Part shown: positions 10,985 through 19,290 of the stretch, in pieces
How positions within the stretch are numbered: position 1 is the stretch's first letter
Layout: the number at the start of each line of letters is the position of its first letter
IMG/VR virus record: IMGVR_UViG_3300048117_000216
Span: 1-20,686 of that record
Length of the DNA stretch: 20,686 bases
Reading direction: 5' to 3' (one strand)
From: a virus
The notes under the pieces: generated by a model
Told to the model about the DNA's origin: nothing
Seen by the model: only the letters and a program-made list of their open reading frames with translations
Databases searched by the model: none
Program-made: the position numbers and the translations under genes

Positions 10985-13306
10985 TTATTTGTCAGCGTCC
11001 TTGATTGCTTTTTCAATCATGTCTTGTGCGAACTGTTTGGATGCTGGTAAGAAACCAGATGAACCTGCCGCAGTTTTCATAATACCGCCAATACCACCGA
11101 CTTTCTTTTTCAAGTCAGCAACTGTACCTTTAACTAGGTCCTTCTTTGCATCGCTTCTAGCACCTTGAGTTTTGCCATTTTTAGCCATGTTTCTAATCAT
11201 TTTGCCTTGTGGACTATTTGCATTGTACTTAACGCCTGATTTGGCTTTGAGACCAAATGCCGCTGTATCTGCCTTGTTTGCTAATTTTCCAACTGCACCT
11301 GCGGCCTTCTTAAGACCACCAGCAACTGCTGTTCCTACTGCAGGTAATGCCTCATTCTTATCCCAGTTGAATTTACCATTCTTAAATACACCGTATTCAT
11401 CAGGTTCATCGCCACCTGTTGATATAAGATTAAGTCCTTCTGGTTCTAAACCGGCTTTCTTAACAAGTTCTAAGAACTTATCTTTGATTGGGTCACCTTC
11501 TTCATTTGCGCCAATGTAATCATCATATTCTTCTACCTTTTTGCCATCTTTATATACATCAATCATATAAAAACTTTCACTGTAATCATAATATACATTC
11601 GCATAATTATCGCCTAATATGTCGGCTTCATTTACTGTTTCATTTAAGTCTGGCTCACGGTTTATAAAATCCTGTATTACATCTGCATCTAAGGCAGATA
11701 GTAATCTATGCATTACTTTTGGATAACCATGTTGTTTAATCATGTCGTATACTGGTTGTGTATAATATCCGCCTGCTTCTTTAACTGCATTAAGTTTTTT
11801 GCCTTTTGCTTTTGCTGAAGCATTCATACCTGAACTTTGTGCCGCATTACCAATAGCACTACCAGCCGCATTTGCTGAACCCATTGCTGCCGCACCGGCT
11901 GCCTTTTTAGCAACGTTTTTAACTGCCGCACCAGCAACTTTTCTACCGATAGCGCCTGCTATCGCACCAACTAATGGTAAAATCTCATCAATACGTTTGC
12001 CTTCTGCAATACCTTCTTTAAGTTTGCTAAATGCAAAGTTTGACATTCTAAGCATGCCTTCTTTAGTTCTTAGCATATTATCAATTTTTTCTTTGTTAGC
12101 ATCGTTTACAGCATTGTATACTGCCACAACGGCTGATGCTGTATATAAATCTACTTTCATCTTGCCATCGTCAAATTTGACTTGCATATTTTGTTTGTCT
12201 GCTACAATCTTTTTAATTGTATCAATTGCTTTATTGCTACTCTTTGGTTTCATATCCATAACTTTTAAGAATTCATCTCTAGCCGCAATTGCTTCTGCAT
12301 CTTCTTCTTTAAGTGGCTTGTCATAGAAAGGTTTTTGTTTCTTAGATGCTTCACCTAAGTTCTTTTCAGCATATGCTTTTACGTCTTCTGCACTACCATG
12401 AAATGAAACTTTATATCCACCATAAGGCGATTTGATTAGTTTGCCATCTTCGCCTCTGTGTATCTGCTTTCTCAAGTTAAATTTCTTATGTGCGTTTGCT
12501 TCGCCTTCAGGTTGGTAATCTGATATAGTAACTGTTTTTCCATCGTTACTATAACTTTCGTAAAATTCTTCTTCAGATTCACCGGCTGCCATTTCTTTAC
12601 AATCACCACATCTACCATGTCCATCGTTATAGTCCATCATAGGAGCACCACAGCAATTACTTACCATGCCTTCTGAATCAGCGTACTCATCACCTGGAGA
12701 ATATGATTCAACAAATACTTCTACCATGTCATCGCCATTACGCAATGCACCTTTTTTAACTTTTACGTTTTCTTTACCGTATTCTTTTTCTGCTTCTGCT
12801 GGCGACATACTAGTTTGTTTCCAACGCTTTTCTGCTTCATTTACAGATTCTTTAATACGAGCATCTAACTGAACATCATCATAGCCTTGTGCTTTATATT
12901 TGTCGTATAATCTGACTGCTTCGTCATATGGTAAATAATTATCACTGACTTCAGTACCGCCAACCCAAACAGAATATTCCATTTCAGAACCTTTTACTGT
13001 TTTGTCATATTCTTCTTTAGACATATCACCATGATAGTCGTCATAAGATTCTGCTTGATGTGACTTATTACCGTATGTTACACATGGGTCTTGACCACAA
13101 CCACAGTTCTTATCTGACTTTTCAGCAACGTGTTCTACATCCGCTAACATTGGTGTAACACCAGCAGTTGATTTTAATTTCCAATGTTTAGCCGCATTCT
13201 TTGCCGCATCATAAGATGATACTGCATGAGTTTCATATTTGCCTTTTTTAGCGTGAAAGACCACGTAAGGACGTTCTTTTTGTTCTATCATTTGTGTCAA
13301 TTTCAT
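10985..13306 (-). CDS. Modular, probably proteolytically processed virion/internal protein (773 aa)
   Basis: No single known family is recognised over its length. Visible modules in order: an N-terminal M-K-L-T-Q-M-I-E peptide; a small alpha/beta segment (P-Y-V-V-F-H-A-K-K-G, 13-22); a Cys cluster (C68, C70, C75); a zinc-ribbon-like C218-C219 ... C233-x2-C236; a long Ala/Gly-rich stretch (443-490, L-P-L-V-G-A-I-A-G-A-I-G onward) with glycine-zipper character; and a basic Ala/Lys/Gly C-terminus (653-773). Hydrophobic-x-Glu|Ala junctions separate several modules: VNE|A at 157/158, LGE|A at 319/320, VKE|A at 510/511 and VNE|A at 560/561. This resembles prohead-protease sites. The long basic, low-complexity parts suit DNA or membrane contact. 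It follows the 67-aa gene by 7 nt and ends at a terminator. Packaging in the virion is inference. Confidence 0.6.
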   Translation of the reverse strand: MKLTQMIEQKERPYVVFHAKKGKYETHAVSSYDAAKNAAKHWKLKSTAGVTPMLADVEHVAEKSDKNCGCGQDPCVTYGNKSHQAESYDDYHGDMSKEEYDKTVKGSEMEYSVWVGGTEVSDNYLPYDEAVRLYDKYKAQGYDDVQLDARIKESVNEAEKRWKQTSMSPAEAEKEYGKENVKVKKGALRNGDDMVEVFVESYSPGDEYADSEGMVSNCCGAPMMDYNDGHGRCGDCKEMAAGESEEEFYESYSNDGKTVTISDYQPEGEANAHKKFNLRKQIHRGEDGKLIKSPYGGYKVSFHGSAEDVKAYAEKNLGEASKKQKPFYDKPLKEEDAEAIAARDEFLKVMDMKPKSSNKAIDTIKKIVADKQNMQVKFDDGKMKVDLYTASAVVAVYNAVNDANKEKIDNMLRTKEGMLRMSNFAFSKLKEGIAEGKRIDEILPLVGAIAGAIGRKVAGAAVKNVAKKAAGAAAMGSANAAGSAIGNAAQSSGMNASAKAKGKKLNAVKEAGGYYTQPVYDMIKQHGYPKVMHRLLSALDADVIQDFINREPDLNETVNEADILGDNYANVYYDYSESFYMIDVYKDGKKVEEYDDYIGANEEGDPIKDKFLELVKKAGLEPEGLNLISTGGDEPDEYGVFKNGKFNWDKNEALPAVGTAVAGGLKKAAGAVGKLANKADTAAFGLKAKSGVKYNANSPQGKMIRNMAKNGKTQGARSDAKKDLVKGTVADLKKKVGGIGGIMKTAAGSSGFLPASKQFAQDMIEKAIKDADK

Positions 13307-13313
13307 AAGTCTT

Positions 13314-13517
13314 CTACCTTTTAATCATTGGAGTTTTGACTGGATGCTTGTATGATAAATTGCCTACATCAGCACTATATCCCATCTTAGCCTTCTTCTT
13401 CTTGCTCTTTTTCTTTTTACTATATACACTAGCCGAAGGGTCACCGCCACCTAATGGAGATGCCACAGTTGCGATTGCACCTGCTGTTGTTTCGCCTATA
13501 ACTTCATATATTTTCAT
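13314..13517 (-). CDS. Lys-rich small protein with capsid-targeting-like N-terminus (67 aa)
   Basis: The protein starts M-K-I-Y-E-V-I-G-E-T-T-A-G-A-I-A, very like the short N-terminal peptides of T4 internal proteins (M-K-T-Y-Q-E-F-I-x-E). I-G-E|T at 7-10 fits the hydrophobic-x-Glu cleavage rule. It is followed by a Gly/Ala segment (A-T-V-A-S-P-L-G-G-G) and a strongly basic run (K-K-K-K-S-K-K-K-K-A-K, about 34-44) suited to DNA binding. The ATG has no ribosome-binding site; a late-promoter-like GATAAATAC lies so close (13522-13530) that the transcript would start at or next to the ATG. The next gene starts 7 nt downstream. The likely role is a DNA-binding internal or prohead core peptide; this rests on composition and motif. 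Confidence 0.6.
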   Translation of the reverse strand: MKIYEVIGETTAGAIATVASPLGGGDPSASVYSKKKKSKKKKAKMGYSADVGNLSYKHPVKTPMIKR

Positions 13518-13521
13518 AATA

Positions 13522-13530
13522 GTATTTATC
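13522..13530 (-). promoter_or_regulatory. Late-type promoter element before the 67-aa gene
   Basis: The minus strand reads GATAAATAC, one base from the T4 late consensus TATAAATA, placed in the 20-nt gap between the radical SAM stop and the 67-aa ATG. With T4 geometry the start falls at about 13517, the A of the ATG itself, implying a leaderless or near-leaderless mRNA. Confidence 0.5.
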
Positions 13531-13537
13531 TAAATTG

Positions 13538-14767
13538 TCATTTAACTAGTTCATCGAAGTGCGGGAATTCAGATTTGAATGATATATTTCGTCTATTTTC
13601 TAATCTTTTAAATTCATCTGAAGCATTTTTCTTCATCTCTGTAGTGACATTCGCATTCAAAATTTGATTTCTGAGTGACCTCAGCATAGTAATATACTCA
13701 TCTTTCTTATAAAGATTGGTCATTTCATTCTCCATATATTCTATCTGCTCTGTTACAGCATCTGCATGATAATTATTTAGCATTGATATGGATAAGTGCT
13801 GTGGGTCTTCTATATAGTTGATTAAAAACCACACAACAGATTTGTATTCATGTTTTGCCAGTTTTTTATTAATGTATACAAGAAAGTCTTTGAAATACGG
13901 CAGAGATAAGGCATTATGGGCACAACCAAATCCTATAACTAAATTCTTCAATCTTGCTGACTCTGTTAAGAACATATCTAAGTTATTGTCCCACGTTTCA
14001 AAGTTTAGACCCCATCGAATTAGTTCTGCTCTCTTATCAATTGCTTCTCCAGATAACTGCATAATATATATTATGTTAGGAGTACGTTCAATTAACTCAA
14101 TAAATTTCGTAAATTTCTTTTCAGGAAAAGCCATGCCAGTTGTGATTGTAACTGTTACTTCTTGTTCAGATTTTACATGGAATTTTGAAAGGTATTCTAG
14201 GAATACATACATGTGGTCAGTAAAGAAAGGCTCACCACCTAATAGACTGATATTGATATATGGTTTATTTGTTAGTTTGGTATTGAAATACTCAGCCAGT
14301 AAATCCATTACTTTATGAAATATTTCATCTTCAGTATCAGGATGTCGTTGTTTTAATTCTTTTTGCCACCTCGAACTAAGTTGTGGTCCACAGTATACAC
14401 AGGCTAAATTACACTTGTTTGTCAGTTCAAGTTCAATAAAGGTAGCAGGCGTATCATAATCAAATTCAACAGAATGATTAGTATATAATGTTCTATGACT
14501 TTCTCCAGACCTATCTTCTGATTCCCAACATACGTGACAATCTGCACATCTTATACCAGTTGCTAGTTCTTTTTTTCTCTTTTGAAGAATTGGATGATTG
14601 AAAAGAAAATCTATACCTTTATTGTTTAAGATATCTAAATCAAATGTAGTTTCTTTTGTTTGTTGTTCAGTTAAGTTTGTCTTACAACACCAACTAACTG
14701 TTTTCTTGGGTAACGATATGATAATATCATTCCAAGTTTTATAACACATGGTATCTTTGTTATACAC
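13538..14767 (-). CDS. Radical SAM protein with extra N-terminal Cys cluster (409 aa)
   Basis: The radical SAM signature C-N-L-A-C-V-Y-C (C119-x3-C123-x2-C126) binds the 4Fe-4S cluster and SAM, and L-G-G-E-P (176-180) is the SAM-contact motif. N-terminal cysteines C8, C27-C28, C74, C77 and C80 (R-C-A-D-C-H-V-C-W-E) suggest a second, SPASM/twitch-type auxiliary cluster placed before the core, as in phage 'twitch domain' radical SAM proteins. The start chosen is GTG at 14767, with AAAGG about 7 nt upstream; the ATG at 14749 has no such site. It lies 11 nt after the ParB-like gene and is last in its operon. The substrate is unknown; peptide or nucleotide modification is possible. Auxiliary-cluster enzymes often modify peptides, so neighbouring virion proteins are candidate targets (inference). 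Confidence 0.85.
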   Translation of the reverse strand: MYNKDTMCYKTWNDIIISLPKKTVSWCCKTNLTEQQTKETTFDLDILNNKGIDFLFNHPILQKRKKELATGIRCADCHVCWESEDRSGESHRTLYTNHSVEFDYDTPATFIELELTNKCNLACVYCGPQLSSRWQKELKQRHPDTEDEIFHKVMDLLAEYFNTKLTNKPYINISLLGGEPFFTDHMYVFLEYLSKFHVKSEQEVTVTITTGMAFPEKKFTKFIELIERTPNIIYIMQLSGEAIDKRAELIRWGLNFETWDNNLDMFLTESARLKNLVIGFGCAHNALSLPYFKDFLVYINKKLAKHEYKSVVWFLINYIEDPQHLSISMLNNYHADAVTEQIEYMENEMTNLYKKDEYITMLRSLRNQILNANVTTEMKKNASDEFKRLENRRNISFKSEFPHFDELVK

Positions 14768-14778
14768 TTGTGAGCCTT

Positions 14779-15990
14779 TTATCGTAAATTTTTCTTAGGT
14801 AACCCGTCTTTACTGACTTTATTACCGAACTTAGCGGCTTGTTTCTTAATTTCGTTAGGTCCAACATCAACAGTAGTATTAATTCCTGGTACGACTTTAC
14901 CCACACCATACTCTGTTACACTCTTTTTTACGGCATCGAACTTTTCTGCCATATCATCTTCTAATGCATCAAATATAGATTCTTTATTAATACCACGAGA
15001 TTTTGGTCCACCTCTTTTACGAGTTGATTGTAGTTCTGCTTTTGTATCAACGACTGATTTCATCATTAATTGTAAAACATCTCTATCTAATAGACTTTGT
15101 ATTTGTTCAAAGTCGCCTCGTTCTGCCATCTTAGTAAGTTCTTTAAGTTTGCCAACTATACTGTCTTCTATTTGATTAAGCATAAGTCTGCCATATCCTT
15201 GAATGTATACTTCAGGATTATTAGGGTCTTCTTTGTTCCACTGCCAAATCTCAGATTCTTCGCCTATGTAGGCTTTGACTGTTTTAATGCCCTGTGCCTT
15301 ATATGCTTGAAGTCTATGATTACCATCTAATATATATCCGTCGTTGCCTATTACCATAGGTGGGAATTTTGATAAATCTGCTTGTTTATATTTTTCAATA
15401 TTAGCCTGACTCATTCCGTCATTGTTAACGGCTGTTGGTATCTGGTCAACTTGTACATCTTTAAGTGTAAACCCTTTATGAGATAGAACAAACTTTGACC
15501 AATCAGAGTTTGGGTTCATTGCGCCCGTATGTGTGCCTTGCATTTCTTTTGATAGTTTTGTCAACATTTGTTGTGATGACATTACTGAAGGACTTTCTTC
15601 TATTGATTCTACTGGGAATTCTTTGTTAGATGTTTTAAAGTCTTTCTTACGCATAACAGTTTTAACAATCAAATCTAATTCATTGTTATCTCTATCCCAT
15701 CTTAATGCAAATGGCATATTGATATCTGTCTGTAAATCTTTCATTACTGCTTCAGCATCTGGACCCATCTGTGCGATTGGCTTACCCCAACGTTTGTATT
15801 CTTGTTTGAATAGGCGTGTTAGTTCACTACCAGTAATTTGCTCACCGTTACGGTCATCGTTTACTCTGTCTAAGAAGTGACGTGTAAATTCTACATCAAT
15901 ACCAACTTTGCCAAATATTCTATCAGCGAATACTTCTAATGCATCCAAGTCAGACTGTGTGATTTTCTTATCTAATTCATCTAGTCTCAT
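14779..15990 (-). CDS. ParB-like nuclease-fold protein with conserved N-terminal phage domain (403 aa)
   Basis: Residues 1-115 form a domain with the element F-T-R-H-F-L-D-R-V-N-D-D-R-N and I-T-x-x-E-L, followed by N-M-P-F-A-L-R-W-D; from memory this domain recurs in marine T4-like phage proteins. Residues about 180-245 form a ParB/sulfiredoxin-like domain: I-P-T-A-V-N-N-D-G ... P-P-M-V-I-G-N-D-G-Y-I-L-D-G-N-H-R-L-Q-A (D222-G-N-H-R226), the G-x-H-R nucleotide-binding motif. The rest is charged and helical, ending in a basic tail (K-K-Q-A-A-K-F-G-N-K-V). CTP/ATP binding or nuclease activity is possible but unproven. It starts M-R-L-D-E-L, fitting the shared N-terminal peptide only loosely. The ATG shares base 15990 with the upstream stop (TAATG). 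Candidate packaged protein. Confidence 0.7.
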   Translation of the reverse strand: MRLDELDKKITQSDLDALEVFADRIFGKVGIDVEFTRHFLDRVNDDRNGEQITGSELTRLFKQEYKRWGKPIAQMGPDAEAVMKDLQTDINMPFALRWDRDNNELDLIVKTVMRKKDFKTSNKEFPVESIEESPSVMSSQQMLTKLSKEMQGTHTGAMNPNSDWSKFVLSHKGFTLKDVQVDQIPTAVNNDGMSQANIEKYKQADLSKFPPMVIGNDGYILDGNHRLQAYKAQGIKTVKAYIGEESEIWQWNKEDPNNPEVYIQGYGRLMLNQIEDSIVGKLKELTKMAERGDFEQIQSLLDRDVLQLMMKSVVDTKAELQSTRKRGGPKSRGINKESIFDALEDDMAEKFDAVKKSVTEYGVGKVVPGINTTVDVGPNEIKKQAAKFGNKVSKDGLPKKNLR

Positions 15991-16856
15991 TATAATTCAC
16001 CCTTTGCATACTCTTGGATATCTGGTGGGATGCCCATGTCTTTTATCGTATTGTTATTAGTAAATGCTGTGAATATATTCTTTTGGTCTTCAGGTGGTAA
16101 GTTCTTCTTAATTGCAGTAACTAATGTCTCATAACTATATAGGTCTTCGCCATTATCTAGTTTTAAATTCTTTGCAATCGAGTCTGCTGTCTTCCACGGA
16201 CCATCGATAATTTTATTATTGTTCTTCTTAGTGTATCCATTGCCTGATGCTTTTGGAACTGGTCTACGCAAAACTCTTACTAGTCCATCTCTCGGACTAA
16301 ACATAAATCTTTTTGATTGAAGTGGTCTACCGTCATCAATTGTTTCTTCACTGTTTTCTATATCTAAATTACCAGCAATTGAGGCAATCATTAGATTACG
16401 ATAAACGCCTTTATACTGGCTATCTTTTTCATTTGGTGAATGATAGTAAGTCTTTAACCAATCTGGGTCACCTGGCATGAAATCAACTTGAACATATCCA
16501 GTTCTTGGTCTACCGTCATCTTTGCTCTCATCAAAGTCCATGATTTTAACTTTTGTCATAATCACACTTGACTTTGCAATGTCCATTATTTGGCTACTTT
16601 TTTTAAGTCTTTCTACGAATTCTGGTATCTTGTCTGCATCAATCTTTAATGCAACATCAATGTCGCCACTGAATTCTCTTTTACCAACACTACCTAATGC
16701 ATTGTTTCTTAAATCGATACCTAACTCTTTCTCTAATGGAATAAGTGTTGGATTGATTTCATCAATATGAATAGCACCGACACCTGGCATAGAACCACCC
16801 TCAGAAATAACTTCTGATTGTGCGGCTTTAGATTGTGTCAATTCAAATAAGTTCAT
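15990..16856 (-). CDS. Polymerase-beta-like nucleotidyltransferase (288 aa)
   Basis: The signature G-S-V-G-K-R-E-F-S-G-D-I-D-V-A-L (55-70) is the G-S-x(n)-[GS]-D-x-D pattern of the Pol-beta/MNT nucleotidyltransferase superfamily, with D65 and D67 as metal ligands. The third acid is probably D125 in G-Y-V-Q-V-D-F-M-P (120-128). It would transfer a nucleotide to a small molecule, nucleic acid or protein. The N-terminus M-N-L-F-E-L-T-Q matches the peptide shared by its neighbours, and I-S-E|G at 17-20 is a candidate prohead-protease site ahead of the folded domain. It lies 4 nt after the 809-aa gene and shares a TAATG with the ParB-like gene. A toxin-antitoxin-type nucleotidyltransferase or a tRNA-modifying enzyme is the alternative; the substrate is unknown. 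Confidence 0.72.
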   Translation of the reverse strand: MNLFELTQSKAAQSEVISEGGSMPGVGAIHIDEINPTLIPLEKELGIDLRNNALGSVGKREFSGDIDVALKIDADKIPEFVERLKKSSQIMDIAKSSVIMTKVKIMDFDESKDDGRPRTGYVQVDFMPGDPDWLKTYYHSPNEKDSQYKGVYRNLMIASIAGNLDIENSEETIDDGRPLQSKRFMFSPRDGLVRVLRRPVPKASGNGYTKKNNNKIIDGPWKTADSIAKNLKLDNGEDLYSYETLVTAIKKNLPPEDQKNIFTAFTNNNTIKDMGIPPDIQEYAKGEL

Positions 16857-16860
16857 TATA

Positions 16861-19290
16861 TTAAATTTTCTGTTGGTCTATTAGTTTACTTAGTGCTTCT
16901 TTAACTTTATAAGTTTTTCCATCAACGTCAAATGTCTTTTTGCCATCAATTTTTGCTTTTGCTAATGCACCAGAAAATTCATTACCTTCTGCTTCTGTTT
17001 CTGGAAACAATTGCTTGTAATATTTCTTGTGAATTGCCTTATACATCATATCTGATTGTTCAGGTGTCGTATGACCTTGACGTTTGATTATCTTTAAAAG
17101 ACCTTCAACTGCTTTAATCTCACCTCTATCACCGAATGCTTGTGCTAACATAAGAATGTTTTCTGAATGATTGTTTCTATCTTCATTATGCTTATATGTG
17201 TCTTGCATCTTTTTCAAGTCACCGCCGTGGTCTTCAGGTGCAACATCTTTCTCATCGTAATCATCAGGACCATAACCAAAAGGTGTAACATCTTTGAAGT
17301 TTTCATTTACTGTAGGTATTTTCTTAATGATGTTATTAAGAATTTGATTACCATCTGATGCTGTTACTTTTCCATTTTCATCTCTGTTGCTATAGGTACC
17401 AAACATACGTGAAAAACGTTTTTCAACAACGTCTTTGTTTTTCTTAACCCAAAGCATTAGAGTAGTTAATTTACCTTTATCTTTTAGAATACTGCCTTCA
17501 TCCCACATTTCAGATTTTCCAAGATATTTTAATCCTGCTGGGTCTCTTTTAACACCATCGTGTAACATACACAAGTCATGGATAAAGTTTATCGCTTGTC
17601 CACCAAAGCCTTCTGAACTATCTCGTACCGCTTCGTTTACTTCTGTAGTATCACCTTCCATGTAATGTTTTACACTTGAGATATAATCAGCCGCTTTAGT
17701 AATCTTTGCTTGAACCCAACCTTGTAAGCCTTCTTCTTCAGAAACATTACTAAGCATTTGTTCTAACTCTGAAGAATACTTTGCTAGTCTGCTAACATCT
17801 TTTCTAGCCATACTTACTTCGTGGTCAGTTGTTTCATACATCGTCTCCAGTTCTTCAAGTTCTTCTCCCGCATCTATAAAAGCACGGCGTATAAACTCAT
17901 TAAATTTAGCAATATCCTTCTCATCCCTTGCTAATAATTTATTAAATATTTTAGCGATATCTTCTGGTACTGGTGTTTCTTCGTTGGTAAAGAAAATATC
18001 AATAGTTCTTTTAAAGTCTGCTAGGTCTTTAATACCATCCAACATATCCCAATCATTATTCATCGCAGATTTAAGAGTTTCAAGTGTTCCATCTGACATT
18101 GAGTTTACCCAATCAAAACTTCCTTCTATTGGTTTTAAATCAACATCTGCTTCGTTTACACTTTCATCCACTGGGCGTTCTATAATATCTTCAACATATT
18201 CCATCGCTTGGTCTACCATCGTTTGGTCAAAATAACTATCTTCGTCTGTCGATGCACTTAATGTTGTTGCGATGTAAGATAATTTCTTCTTATCTTCTTC
18301 GTTTCTAGGTTTAATTTGCCCTACATAGAATTGTGCTTTGGTTACCATCAACTCATCGTTGTGTCCATCACCATCTGCGTTTTGAAGTACATTATGAATG
18401 AATTCTAATTTCTCGTCTGTGTCAGCACTACTTTCTAAAACTTCTTTGACTTTTCTGTCAAACTCTTCTTCGATTGACTCGGCATGCATGGCTGCCATAT
18501 GGGCTTTATACTTTTTAGTTCCCTTTTTGTGTGGGCTCTTGCCTTCTGTTAATGCTTGTAATATGGTATCTTTCATAATATTGTCCTCGATAACGTTCTC
18601 TTTTAAGTATTTAGAAAACGAGTGTTCGTCCCAGTTTTCATTCATGGTTTCTGTATTGCCTATTTTGTTTTTGAATAACTCTATTACATCTTGCGGCACA
18701 TCTGTAACACTGTATAAGTCTTGTAGTAATTGAGTTAGTTTAGTATCATCGCTTTTTGAAATCATATTTCTAATTTGTGATGCACTATTAATTTTTTGTC
18801 CTAGAACTTCAAATGGAAATGTAGGAGTCGTTGCTATATAACCACGAGTTCCAAATGTTTCAGCATCATTGAGATTAGTCCACTTCTGTAAGTATGCTGG
18901 TTCACCATTCTTCTTTAACTTGAGACCATTAGAGAAATCAAATCTCGGGTCTTCTGCCATGTCTTTTTCTGATACTGCAAACACCATAACTGTAGTGTCT
19001 TTATCAAATCTTTCCATGATTTCTATAGATTGGTATGGAGATTTTGTTTGAACGATAGCACTAGCATCAACACCAGCCAACATCATCATCTTTTTCTTCT
19101 CATCGAAAGTGAAAGGTGACCTGTCGCCATCTACTTTGCCAGAGGTAGCAATGAATACTTTTGCATTGCTATACTTCTGCTTCAAGTATTTGTATACTTT
19201 ACCGTGTCCAATGTGGAACGGGTGAAAGCGACCAGGATATATAATAACCAGTTGTTTGCTCTCTGCCTCTAGTATATCTTTTAAGTTCAT
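16861..19290 (-). CDS. HxGH nucleotidyltransferase (NMNAT/cytidylyltransferase fold) fused to a long processed tail (809 aa)
   Basis: Residues about 13-180 form a cytidylyltransferase-like domain: Y-P-G-R-F-H-P-F-H-I-G-H (18-29, H26-x-G-H29) and S-A-S-Q-I-R-N-M-I (169-177), the S/T-x-x-I-R motif of NMN/nicotinate, pantetheine and FAD adenylyltransferases. An NAD-synthesis-type role is the closest guess. The rest (about 200-809) is acidic, helical and without recognised fold except a K-K-G-T-K-K-Y-K-A-H-M-A-A-M-H-A element (255-270). It is punctuated by possible cleavage sites: ILE|A 8/9, MNE|N 218/219, LTE|G 249/250, VNE|A 380/381, VNE|A 553/554, VNE|N 663/664 and VKE|A 798/799. The N-terminus M-N-L-K-D-I-L-E matches the neighbours' peptide. 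It heads a late operon. Virion packaging is inferred. Confidence 0.72.
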   Translation of the reverse strand: MNLKDILEAESKQLVIIYPGRFHPFHIGHGKVYKYLKQKYSNAKVFIATSGKVDGDRSPFTFDEKKKMMMLAGVDASAIVQTKSPYQSIEIMERFDKDTTVMVFAVSEKDMAEDPRFDFSNGLKLKKNGEPAYLQKWTNLNDAETFGTRGYIATTPTFPFEVLGQKINSASQIRNMISKSDDTKLTQLLQDLYSVTDVPQDVIELFKNKIGNTETMNENWDEHSFSKYLKENVIEDNIMKDTILQALTEGKSPHKKGTKKYKAHMAAMHAESIEEEFDRKVKEVLESSADTDEKLEFIHNVLQNADGDGHNDELMVTKAQFYVGQIKPRNEEDKKKLSYIATTLSASTDEDSYFDQTMVDQAMEYVEDIIERPVDESVNEADVDLKPIEGSFDWVNSMSDGTLETLKSAMNNDWDMLDGIKDLADFKRTIDIFFTNEETPVPEDIAKIFNKLLARDEKDIAKFNEFIRRAFIDAGEELEELETMYETTDHEVSMARKDVSRLAKYSSELEQMLSNVSEEEGLQGWVQAKITKAADYISSVKHYMEGDTTEVNEAVRDSSEGFGGQAINFIHDLCMLHDGVKRDPAGLKYLGKSEMWDEGSILKDKGKLTTLMLWVKKNKDVVEKRFSRMFGTYSNRDENGKVTASDGNQILNNIIKKIPTVNENFKDVTPFGYGPDDYDEKDVAPEDHGGDLKKMQDTYKHNEDRNNHSENILMLAQAFGDRGEIKAVEGLLKIIKRQGHTTPEQSDMMYKAIHKKYYKQLFPETEAEGNEFSGALAKAKIDGKKTFDVDGKTYKVKEALSKLIDQQKI

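Follow-up and report, generated by a model that had tools for sequence, protein, structure and literature searches.

Are the enzymes encoded by a viral DNA fragment of 20,686 nucleotides (IMG/VR record IMGVR_UViG_3300048117_000216, the whole of which is referred to here as the window) loaded into the capsid and processed there by a protease? The question is raised by five of its proteins, A, B, C, E and F, all encoded on the minus strand, which start with MNLKDILE, MNLFELTQ, MRLDEL, MKIYEVIGE and MKLTQMIE, respectively. The two largest, A and F, additionally contain the sequence VNE↓A (the arrow marks a candidate cut) twice each. Among the phage records searched, the DNA polymerase is closest to those of jumbo T4-like phages, in the first place Agrobacterium phage Atu_ph07 (48% identity). 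The reading favoured here, which we regard as probable, is that the common starts are T4-like capsid-targeting sequences (CTSs) on modular polyproteins that are cut apart by the prohead protease. Packaging is supported by the virion list of a relative, cyanophage S-CREM2; cutting within A and F we infer from their sequences. A preliminary description of the fragment had proposed capsid-packaged, protease-processed cargo, and this proposal gains support from direct observations, namely retention of a conserved tag, exchange of modules, a motif at their joints and in the presumed scaffold, and one association with a virion list.

Protein A (809 amino acids (aa), 16861..19290) consists of the tag MNLKDILE↓A (MNLKDILE at 19267..19290), an NMNAT/cytidylyltransferase-like domain (residues ~10-231) and a mosaic tail with internal sites. 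The candidate sites, recognized by their sequence, are MNE↓N at Glu218 (18634..18645) near the end of the nucleotidyltransferase domain, LTE↓G at Glu249 (18541..18552), VNE↓A at Glu380 (18148..18159) and Glu553 (17629..17640), VNE↓N at Glu663 (17299..17310) and VKE↓A at Glu798 (16894..16905). Homologous copies of the module following Glu380 likewise start right behind a hydrophobic-x-Glu in protein A of the relative L003 and protein F of L004, and Glu553 lies at most 10 aa from a module junction. Protein F (773 aa, 10985..13306) combines the tag MKLTQMIE↓Q (13283..13306) with swapped modules and contains VNE↓A at Glu157 (12833..12844), LGE↓A at Glu319 (12347..12358), VKE↓A at Glu510 (11774..11785) and VNE↓A at Glu560 (11624..11635). 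The last two sites open modules that are also present in L004 A and, for Glu560, in L005 A as well. The N-termini and all site positions given in the preliminary description were found to be exact.

Two copies or more of VNEA are not expected from composition (by shuffling, P=5e-5, protein A, and P=5e-4, protein F), and in the called open reading frames (ORFs) of G001, a near-identical record of 99.9 kb with A and F at 100% identity, the four occurrences are confined to A and F. Across relatives, 84 tagged proteins (52,394 aa) contain VNEA 18 times (shuffled mean 1.1), and 403 untagged proteins of three records (135,073 aa) contain none, a comparison in which homologues are not independent. 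For the loose form [VILM]xE the tagged proteins show no notable enrichment (887 vs 835.8 in shuffled sequences) and no higher density than untagged ones; the signal is therefore confined to narrower forms of the motif.

The N-terminal tags resemble the CTSs of the T4 internal proteins IPI, IPII and IPIII, which likewise span ~8-19 aa at the N-terminus and contain hydrophobic residues at intervals together with a hydrophobic-x-Glu. In the T4 CTS, positions of which have been tested by mutation, positions 4 and 7 belong to scaffold binding and positions 8 and 10 to the cut site (PMC9026906). Two N-terminal patterns were scored: R, fixed before the S-CREM2 proteins were fetched, and R2, which is R with K, R, N or Q at position 2 and was set after S-CREM2 had been seen. 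Scored in their identical G001 copies, A, E and F match R2 and thus the T4 layout, in which hydrophobic residues stand near positions 4 and 7 and a hydrophobic-x-Glu ends the propeptide; by eye, their tags are one or two residues shorter than those of T4. Protein E (67 aa, 13314..13517; tag MKIYEVIGE↓T) is small and Lys-rich, a further likeness to T4, as are the constant tag on variable cargo and the T4-type gp21 and gp23 of relatives. Whole-record counts of R2 are 5/138 for G001, 8/181 for G010 and 12/472 for G009, and some of the short matches look like chance.

Protein B (288 aa, 15990..16856) shows a different layout, with the tag MNLFELTQ, a variable spacer, an invariant [IL]xE at residues 17-19 and a conserved body. 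In its relatives M[NK]L[FY]ELTQ is kept ahead of the spacer and the invariant Glu. A set of 10 B sequences points to a candidate propeptide site ISE↓G at Glu19 (16797..16808): the Glu is invariant, I or L is found two residues earlier in 10/10 and GG behind it in 9/10. The same arrangement is present in T4 IPI as read from the T4 record (MKTFKEFTS, spacer, ITE↓A at Glu19). The body of B contains GSVGKREFSGDID, a putative pol-beta-type nucleotidyltransferase motif. Protein C (403 aa, 14779..15990) carries the tag MRLDELDK, a phrog_23027-like domain (10-123) and a weak ParB-like domain (~177-250).

Relatives were collected by scanning viral contigs, in which A gave 14 loci and F 55 loci. Of 165 ORFs recruited, 107 passed a loose tag filter, and of these the 84 that exceed 150 aa entered the counts; the 58 ORFs that did not pass are partial or untagged, among them proteins of 892-939 aa starting MINTLKEYYTM, which have the zinc-ribbon-like module of F. 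Statements on tag conservation within the 107 ORFs are partly circular because the set was filtered on the tag, and an unfiltered listing serves as the check: in that listing the E tag is retained in 21/21 distinct matches, 8 of them called five codons upstream. In the F slot, where 22 starts are listed (one actually a G009 E protein caught by the pattern), the first eight residues are MK[LI][ST]QL[TI]E or close, followed by eye by at least five different continuations (QKERPY, SFVISND, GPCDVAK, QREVKESYDD, PIKEGNY, PLKESNLV). Untagged matches to F occur too, as truncated ORFs and as the MINTLKEYYTM proteins. The preliminary description had named conservation of both the N-terminal peptide and the VNE↓A sites among homologues as a check. 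Both checks came out positive, the tag being kept while the part following it varies and hydrophobic-x-Glu sites lying where modules are swapped. As the proteins are mosaics, VNE↓A does not stay at fixed positions, and it is the motif at the joints that persists.

This mosaicism was followed by BLAST among tagged proteins of different slots, which gave 148 common segments counted in both directions (A-F 122, A-C 16, C-F 10). Several of them start at V[NKTS]E↓A. Thus, AVKE↓AGGYYTQPVYDMI of F matches EVTE↓AGGYYTQPVYDMI in the A protein of another phage, and DVNE↓APDHEVSMA in C matches SVNE↓APDHEVSMA in A. The module ERPY.C.HAKKGKHE stands behind the N-terminal MKLTQLTE↓Q in F proteins and behind an internal ESVNE↓A in the middle of L009 F; the tag Glu and the internal Glu therefore occupy equivalent places. 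For a statistical test the 84 proteins were reduced to 62 by redundancy removal, 29 of which contain 98 junctions, and motif counts within 10 aa of a junction were set against those at positions drawn at random from these proteins (2000 draws, minimum p=0.0005). At this minimum p, four hydrophobic-x-Glu forms were enriched: [VILMF]xE (71 vs 36.1), [VILM][NKTS]E (41 vs 17.6), [VILM]xE[AGSN] (44 vs 15.1, 2.9-fold) and [VILM]NE (16 vs 5.6). The controls [VILM]xD (29 vs 34.2) and [VILM][ED]E (12 vs 9.3) were not. The 98 junctions are not independent events because related phages have a common history.

The window proteins have one named Pfam domain per chain. At least two disparate domains per polypeptide are found in the relatives L057 and L051, whose tagged polyproteins contain HD_4, PolyA_pol (CCA-adding type) and NT5C above the Pfam cut-offs, L057 also a ParB-like domain below the cut-off; the largest cargo chain reaches 1,436 aa (L031). 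In L057 and L051, 11/13 [VILMF]xE[AGSND] sites fall outside the Pfam envelopes, which is weak evidence because the envelopes cover only ~40% of the chains.

A protease of the appropriate type is encoded by relatives. Above cut-off, gp21 (PF03420) and the major capsid protein gp23 (PF07068) were detected in 3/20 records (G008, G009 and G016), the other 17 being fragments of 35-127 kb, and G009 (342 kb) unites gp21, gp23 and the cargo cluster in one record. The ORF between gp21 and gp23 of G009, assigned by position as putative gp22, ranks first among 440 genes by the significance of its [VILM]NE density (5 in 370 aa; uncorrected p=9.6e-5), and the ORF in the corresponding place of G016 ranks third of 81. 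In G009 gp23 the sequence KALNE↓NATAGG precedes the conserved body, when aligned by eye, at the place of the T4 cut. T4 gp21 degrades the scaffold gp22 (PMC9958956), so that the putative gp22 of G009 is the counterpart of a known substrate. As a side observation, an E-type protein of L070 resembles the arm of G016 gp23 (58% over 24 aa, E 2e-5, top match); for E of the window no significant match of this gp23-arm kind was found.

Cyanophages have tags still closer to those of T4, such as MKTYSQFIEE (PSSM7_194) and MKKFSAFLTE (PSSM7_191), and published virion lists allow the tag to be compared with presence in the particle. In S-CREM2 (detected proteins from Table 3 of PMC10665884) pattern R matches 6/28 non-structural or hypothetical proteins detected by mass spectrometry (MS) vs 5/167 undetected ones (one-sided p=0.0015), and 0/24 structural proteins. 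The matching proteins are gp6, an S-adenosylmethionine (SAM) hydrolase (MKDFDSFLEE) that belongs to the SAM lyase family by Pfam, gp13 (MKDLHSFLTE), the kinase gp14 (MKRFDAFLTE), gp15 (MNFSEFNE), gp136 (MQTFSMFFSE) and the cytidylyltransferase gp154 (MKNFSSFLTE). With R2 the counts become 6/28 vs 0/167 post hoc, as the five undetected R matches lack K/R/N/Q at position 2. The neighbours of the kinase gene have starts that look similar in S-CRM01, S-H34 and S-B68, where the kinase itself starts MISFDQFLSE, MRLSQFNEN and MKRLGRLLAE. The sequence LRFASFMAE↓A of S-CREM2 gp12 was not counted as a match because it ends at residue 25; the label 'Cas9' of this protein is unsupported, with no Pfam or NCBIfam match. 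The cytidylyltransferase (T4-GC190) of S-SM1 is reported in the virion (PMC3037559) and starts MKKFSAFLNE↓A, and the virion list of S-SCSM1 is reported to include an NMNAT (PMC9602691).

Two side observations concern these cyanophage proteins. A module of ~40 aa (GLVSDGHGSYMD...VARTVNGEL) stands behind the tag in the kinase (twice), in the Cas9-labelled protein and in three cytidylyltransferases (L119 gp12 and gp14, L115 PSSM7_191, L138 SSM2_161, L132 SCREM1_218). Its pairwise shuffle z ranges from 4.1 to 19.3, the lowest not exceeding the best of 300 shuffles, and it is possibly a second loading signal. In S-CREM2 (gp160, L122:29843-30736, and gp145), a virion-list protein shows a copy of the major capsid protein's arm directly behind the inferred site of maturation (75% over 24 aa, E 3e-8).

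By analogy with T4, the CTS-like tag would bind each protein to the scaffold core of the prohead, and active gp21 would cut behind hydrophobic-x-Glu and remove the tag. In A, F and other long chains of this kind, the protease would in addition cut at the VNE↓A-type sites that separate modules, a step with no direct precedent known, and one polypeptide would thereby yield several small proteins inside the capsid, which would enter the host with the DNA as in T4. Within minutes of the onset of infection the NMNAT-like domain and the ParB-like one would become active, as would the HD phosphohydrolase, the CCA-adding-type enzyme and the 5'-nucleotidase of relatives. Shuffling of modules and persistence of the tag and of the motif at their joints are observed; modules would be exchangeable there because cutting frees them, and recombination at cut sites would cost little in folding. 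Whether this amounts to an open-ended delivery platform of T4-like marine phages, in which any module placed behind a tag or between hydrophobic-x-Glu↓Ala sites is loaded, cut free and injected, appears evenly poised to us. We would give the same even chance to a platform payload, shuffled at the cut sites, of NMNAT-like enzyme, SAM lyase, kinase, HD phosphohydrolase, CCA-adding-type enzyme, nucleotidase and ParB-like domains; the HD phosphohydrolase may act on ppGpp.

Several results weigh against targeting combined with cutting. B and C fail the strict pattern, having tags without Glu at the usual end position, and C has no Glu site near its tag at all. Nucleotidyltransferases of KP13-7, BF, phi30-2 and P-HM1 have no tag, and the HTVC008M enzyme, with the start MKTLKELLRKK, lacks the Glu; the tag is therefore an add-on to the fold and not part of it. 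Some modules also occur in untagged proteins of G016 and L062/L066, and G016 encodes gp21, gp23 and common modules, yet R2 matches 0/87 of its genes. On the 20.7-kb record itself gp21, gp22 and gp23 are not found. Among the MS-detected non-structural proteins of S-CREM2, 22/28 lack a pattern match, and the published list of S-SZBM1 (30 proteins) gives no significant association: R matches 1/8 detected hypothetical proteins or enzymes vs 7/188 undetected ones (p=0.29), R2 1/8 vs 2/188 (p=0.12) and 1/30 of all detected proteins. The sole matching and detected protein is a cytidylyltransferase, and the tag-like SSZBM1_191 and 192 are undetected. As a control, R2 was applied to one 45-kb region of T4 with 62 coding sequences and matched three, IPII, IPIII and e.6; e.6 is taken as a false positive and IPI is missed. 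R additionally matches gene 2, and Alt lies outside the region scored.

How these points bear on the favoured reading depends on the alternative considered. If the tag is a real capsid-targeting sequence and the internal VNE↓A sites are flexible linkers or scars of gene fusion, the chains would be packaged whole. Protein A of G009 contains a whole tag-like peptide internally, MKISDIVNE↓A, as fusion of two tagged genes would leave, and the Glu-rich control [DEKR]xE is slightly enriched at the junctions (47 vs 36.4, p=0.026), so that the junction signal may in part reflect Glu-rich linkers. However, the 2.9-fold enrichment of [VILM]xE[AGSN] is not accompanied by any of [VILM]xD, A and F retain at their internal sites the hydrophobic-x-Glu↓Ala and not the remaining tag, and the density of [VILM]NE is highest in the putative gp22. 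We therefore consider packaging of uncut chains unlikely. Much more doubtful is that the proteins are ordinary auxiliary enzymes of the infected cell, whose common start is a feature of translation or folding and whose detection in virions is carry-over. The S-CREM2 authors leave carry-over possible, and the excerpted text makes no mention of targeting (PMC10665884); the undetected SSZBM1_191 and 192 would also fit. On the other hand, the S-CREM2 ORFs that went undetected, DNA polymerase, primase and clamp proteins among them, match the patterns at the low rates given above, and carry-over leaves unexplained both the result at the junctions and the likeness to the T4 CTS positions that were tested by mutation.

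A further alternative is offered by the polyvalent proteins of Iyer et al. 2017, multi-domain effectors that are predicted to be packaged and injected, some of which are proposed to process themselves by a built-in peptidase (PMC5512222) without a prohead protease. Similar to these, the proteins discussed here bring many unrelated enzymatic domains together in one chain, including ParB-like, HD and nucleotidyltransferase domains, and are predicted to be delivered with the DNA. Pfam detects no peptidase domain in A, B, C, E, F or eight large relatives, whereas the CTS-like tag and the hydrophobic-x-Glu sites are of the prohead-protease type and fit gp21. Self-processing thus ranks as very improbable, and T4-like targeting with cutting by the prohead protease is retained as the favoured reading.

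Compared with the T4 internal proteins, the differences are swapped modules, enzyme domains, repeated internal hydrophobic-x-Glu and long chains. Enzyme cargo as such has a precedent in T4 Alt, an injected ADP-ribosyltransferase that is packaged in the head and processed by gp21 (PMC9958956, PMC5512222). Unlike Alt, the relatives have several enzymes per chain and proposed internal cut sites, and an Alt-like domain was not found in the proteins scanned. The system is consequently a variation on the T4 internal-protein/Alt system and not wholly new, being preceded by Alt and the internal proteins of T-even phages, and the earlier view of a delivery tag on enzymes as a notable system needs to be qualified in this respect. 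Head proteins trimmed by a prohead protease are also known from SPN3US. Its protease gp245 belongs to a different protease group. Besides the protease's own cut, the cleavages identified in SPN3US, whose ejection proteins are cut by gp245, release N-terminal propeptides and not modules (PMC10052503). In T4 (L136 4940-6416) denV adjoins ipII/ipIII, and in P-SSM7 (L115 1-7349) it adjoins the cluster of tagged proteins, which hints at an old common cargo locus.

Among the papers listed by searches of an open-access library, none proposes, in its title or the beginning of its abstract, a CTS on enzymes of cyanophages or marine jumbo phages. Cytidylyltransferases and kinases recur in cyanophage virion proteomes, and the authors, in the excerpted texts, are undecided between cargo and carry-over (PMC10665884, PMC9602691). 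A tag readable from the sequence would make this distinction testable and would allow prediction of what is delivered early in infection by uncultured ocean phages, some of which may load a protein cocktail in this manner for delivery at infection. If the internal cut sites are true, the prohead protease would be the decoder of a multi-enzyme cargo and the free recombination of modules would be explained. Furthermore, the tag could be of practical use for bringing proteins into the heads of large phages.

Between the tagged genes C and E lies ORF D (13538..14767, minus strand), which encodes a twitch-type radical SAM protein (NF033640, 191.5 bits vs cut-off 170); it has no tag and is outside the cargo set. 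E as precursor of a ribosomally synthesized and post-translationally modified peptide matured by D was rejected, because G009 has E-type proteins without a radical SAM gene between C and E; another radical-SAM-like ORF, identified by eye, is located beyond A in that record (65621-67168). B, C and F have no NCBIfam matches. Compared with PDB sequences, B gave 0 matches up to E 1 and the N-terminal domain of C only matches of E 0.25 or worse. The predicted structure of B (10 sequences, mean pLDDT 50) was too poor and was not used; that of the C N-terminal domain (17 sequences) has a mean pLDDT of 63. R2 matches away from the cluster were noted in G010 (G010:C1:115773-117841, two in tandem) and G001 (G001:C1:97479-98483), with the starts MRAYEFLHEA, MRAYEFLYEK and MRAFEIFNEA. 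In the window, the neighbouring ORFs 174-866 and 871-1599 share the start MIGIFGDSF and resemble a duplicated pair of SGNH/GDSL-type proteins.

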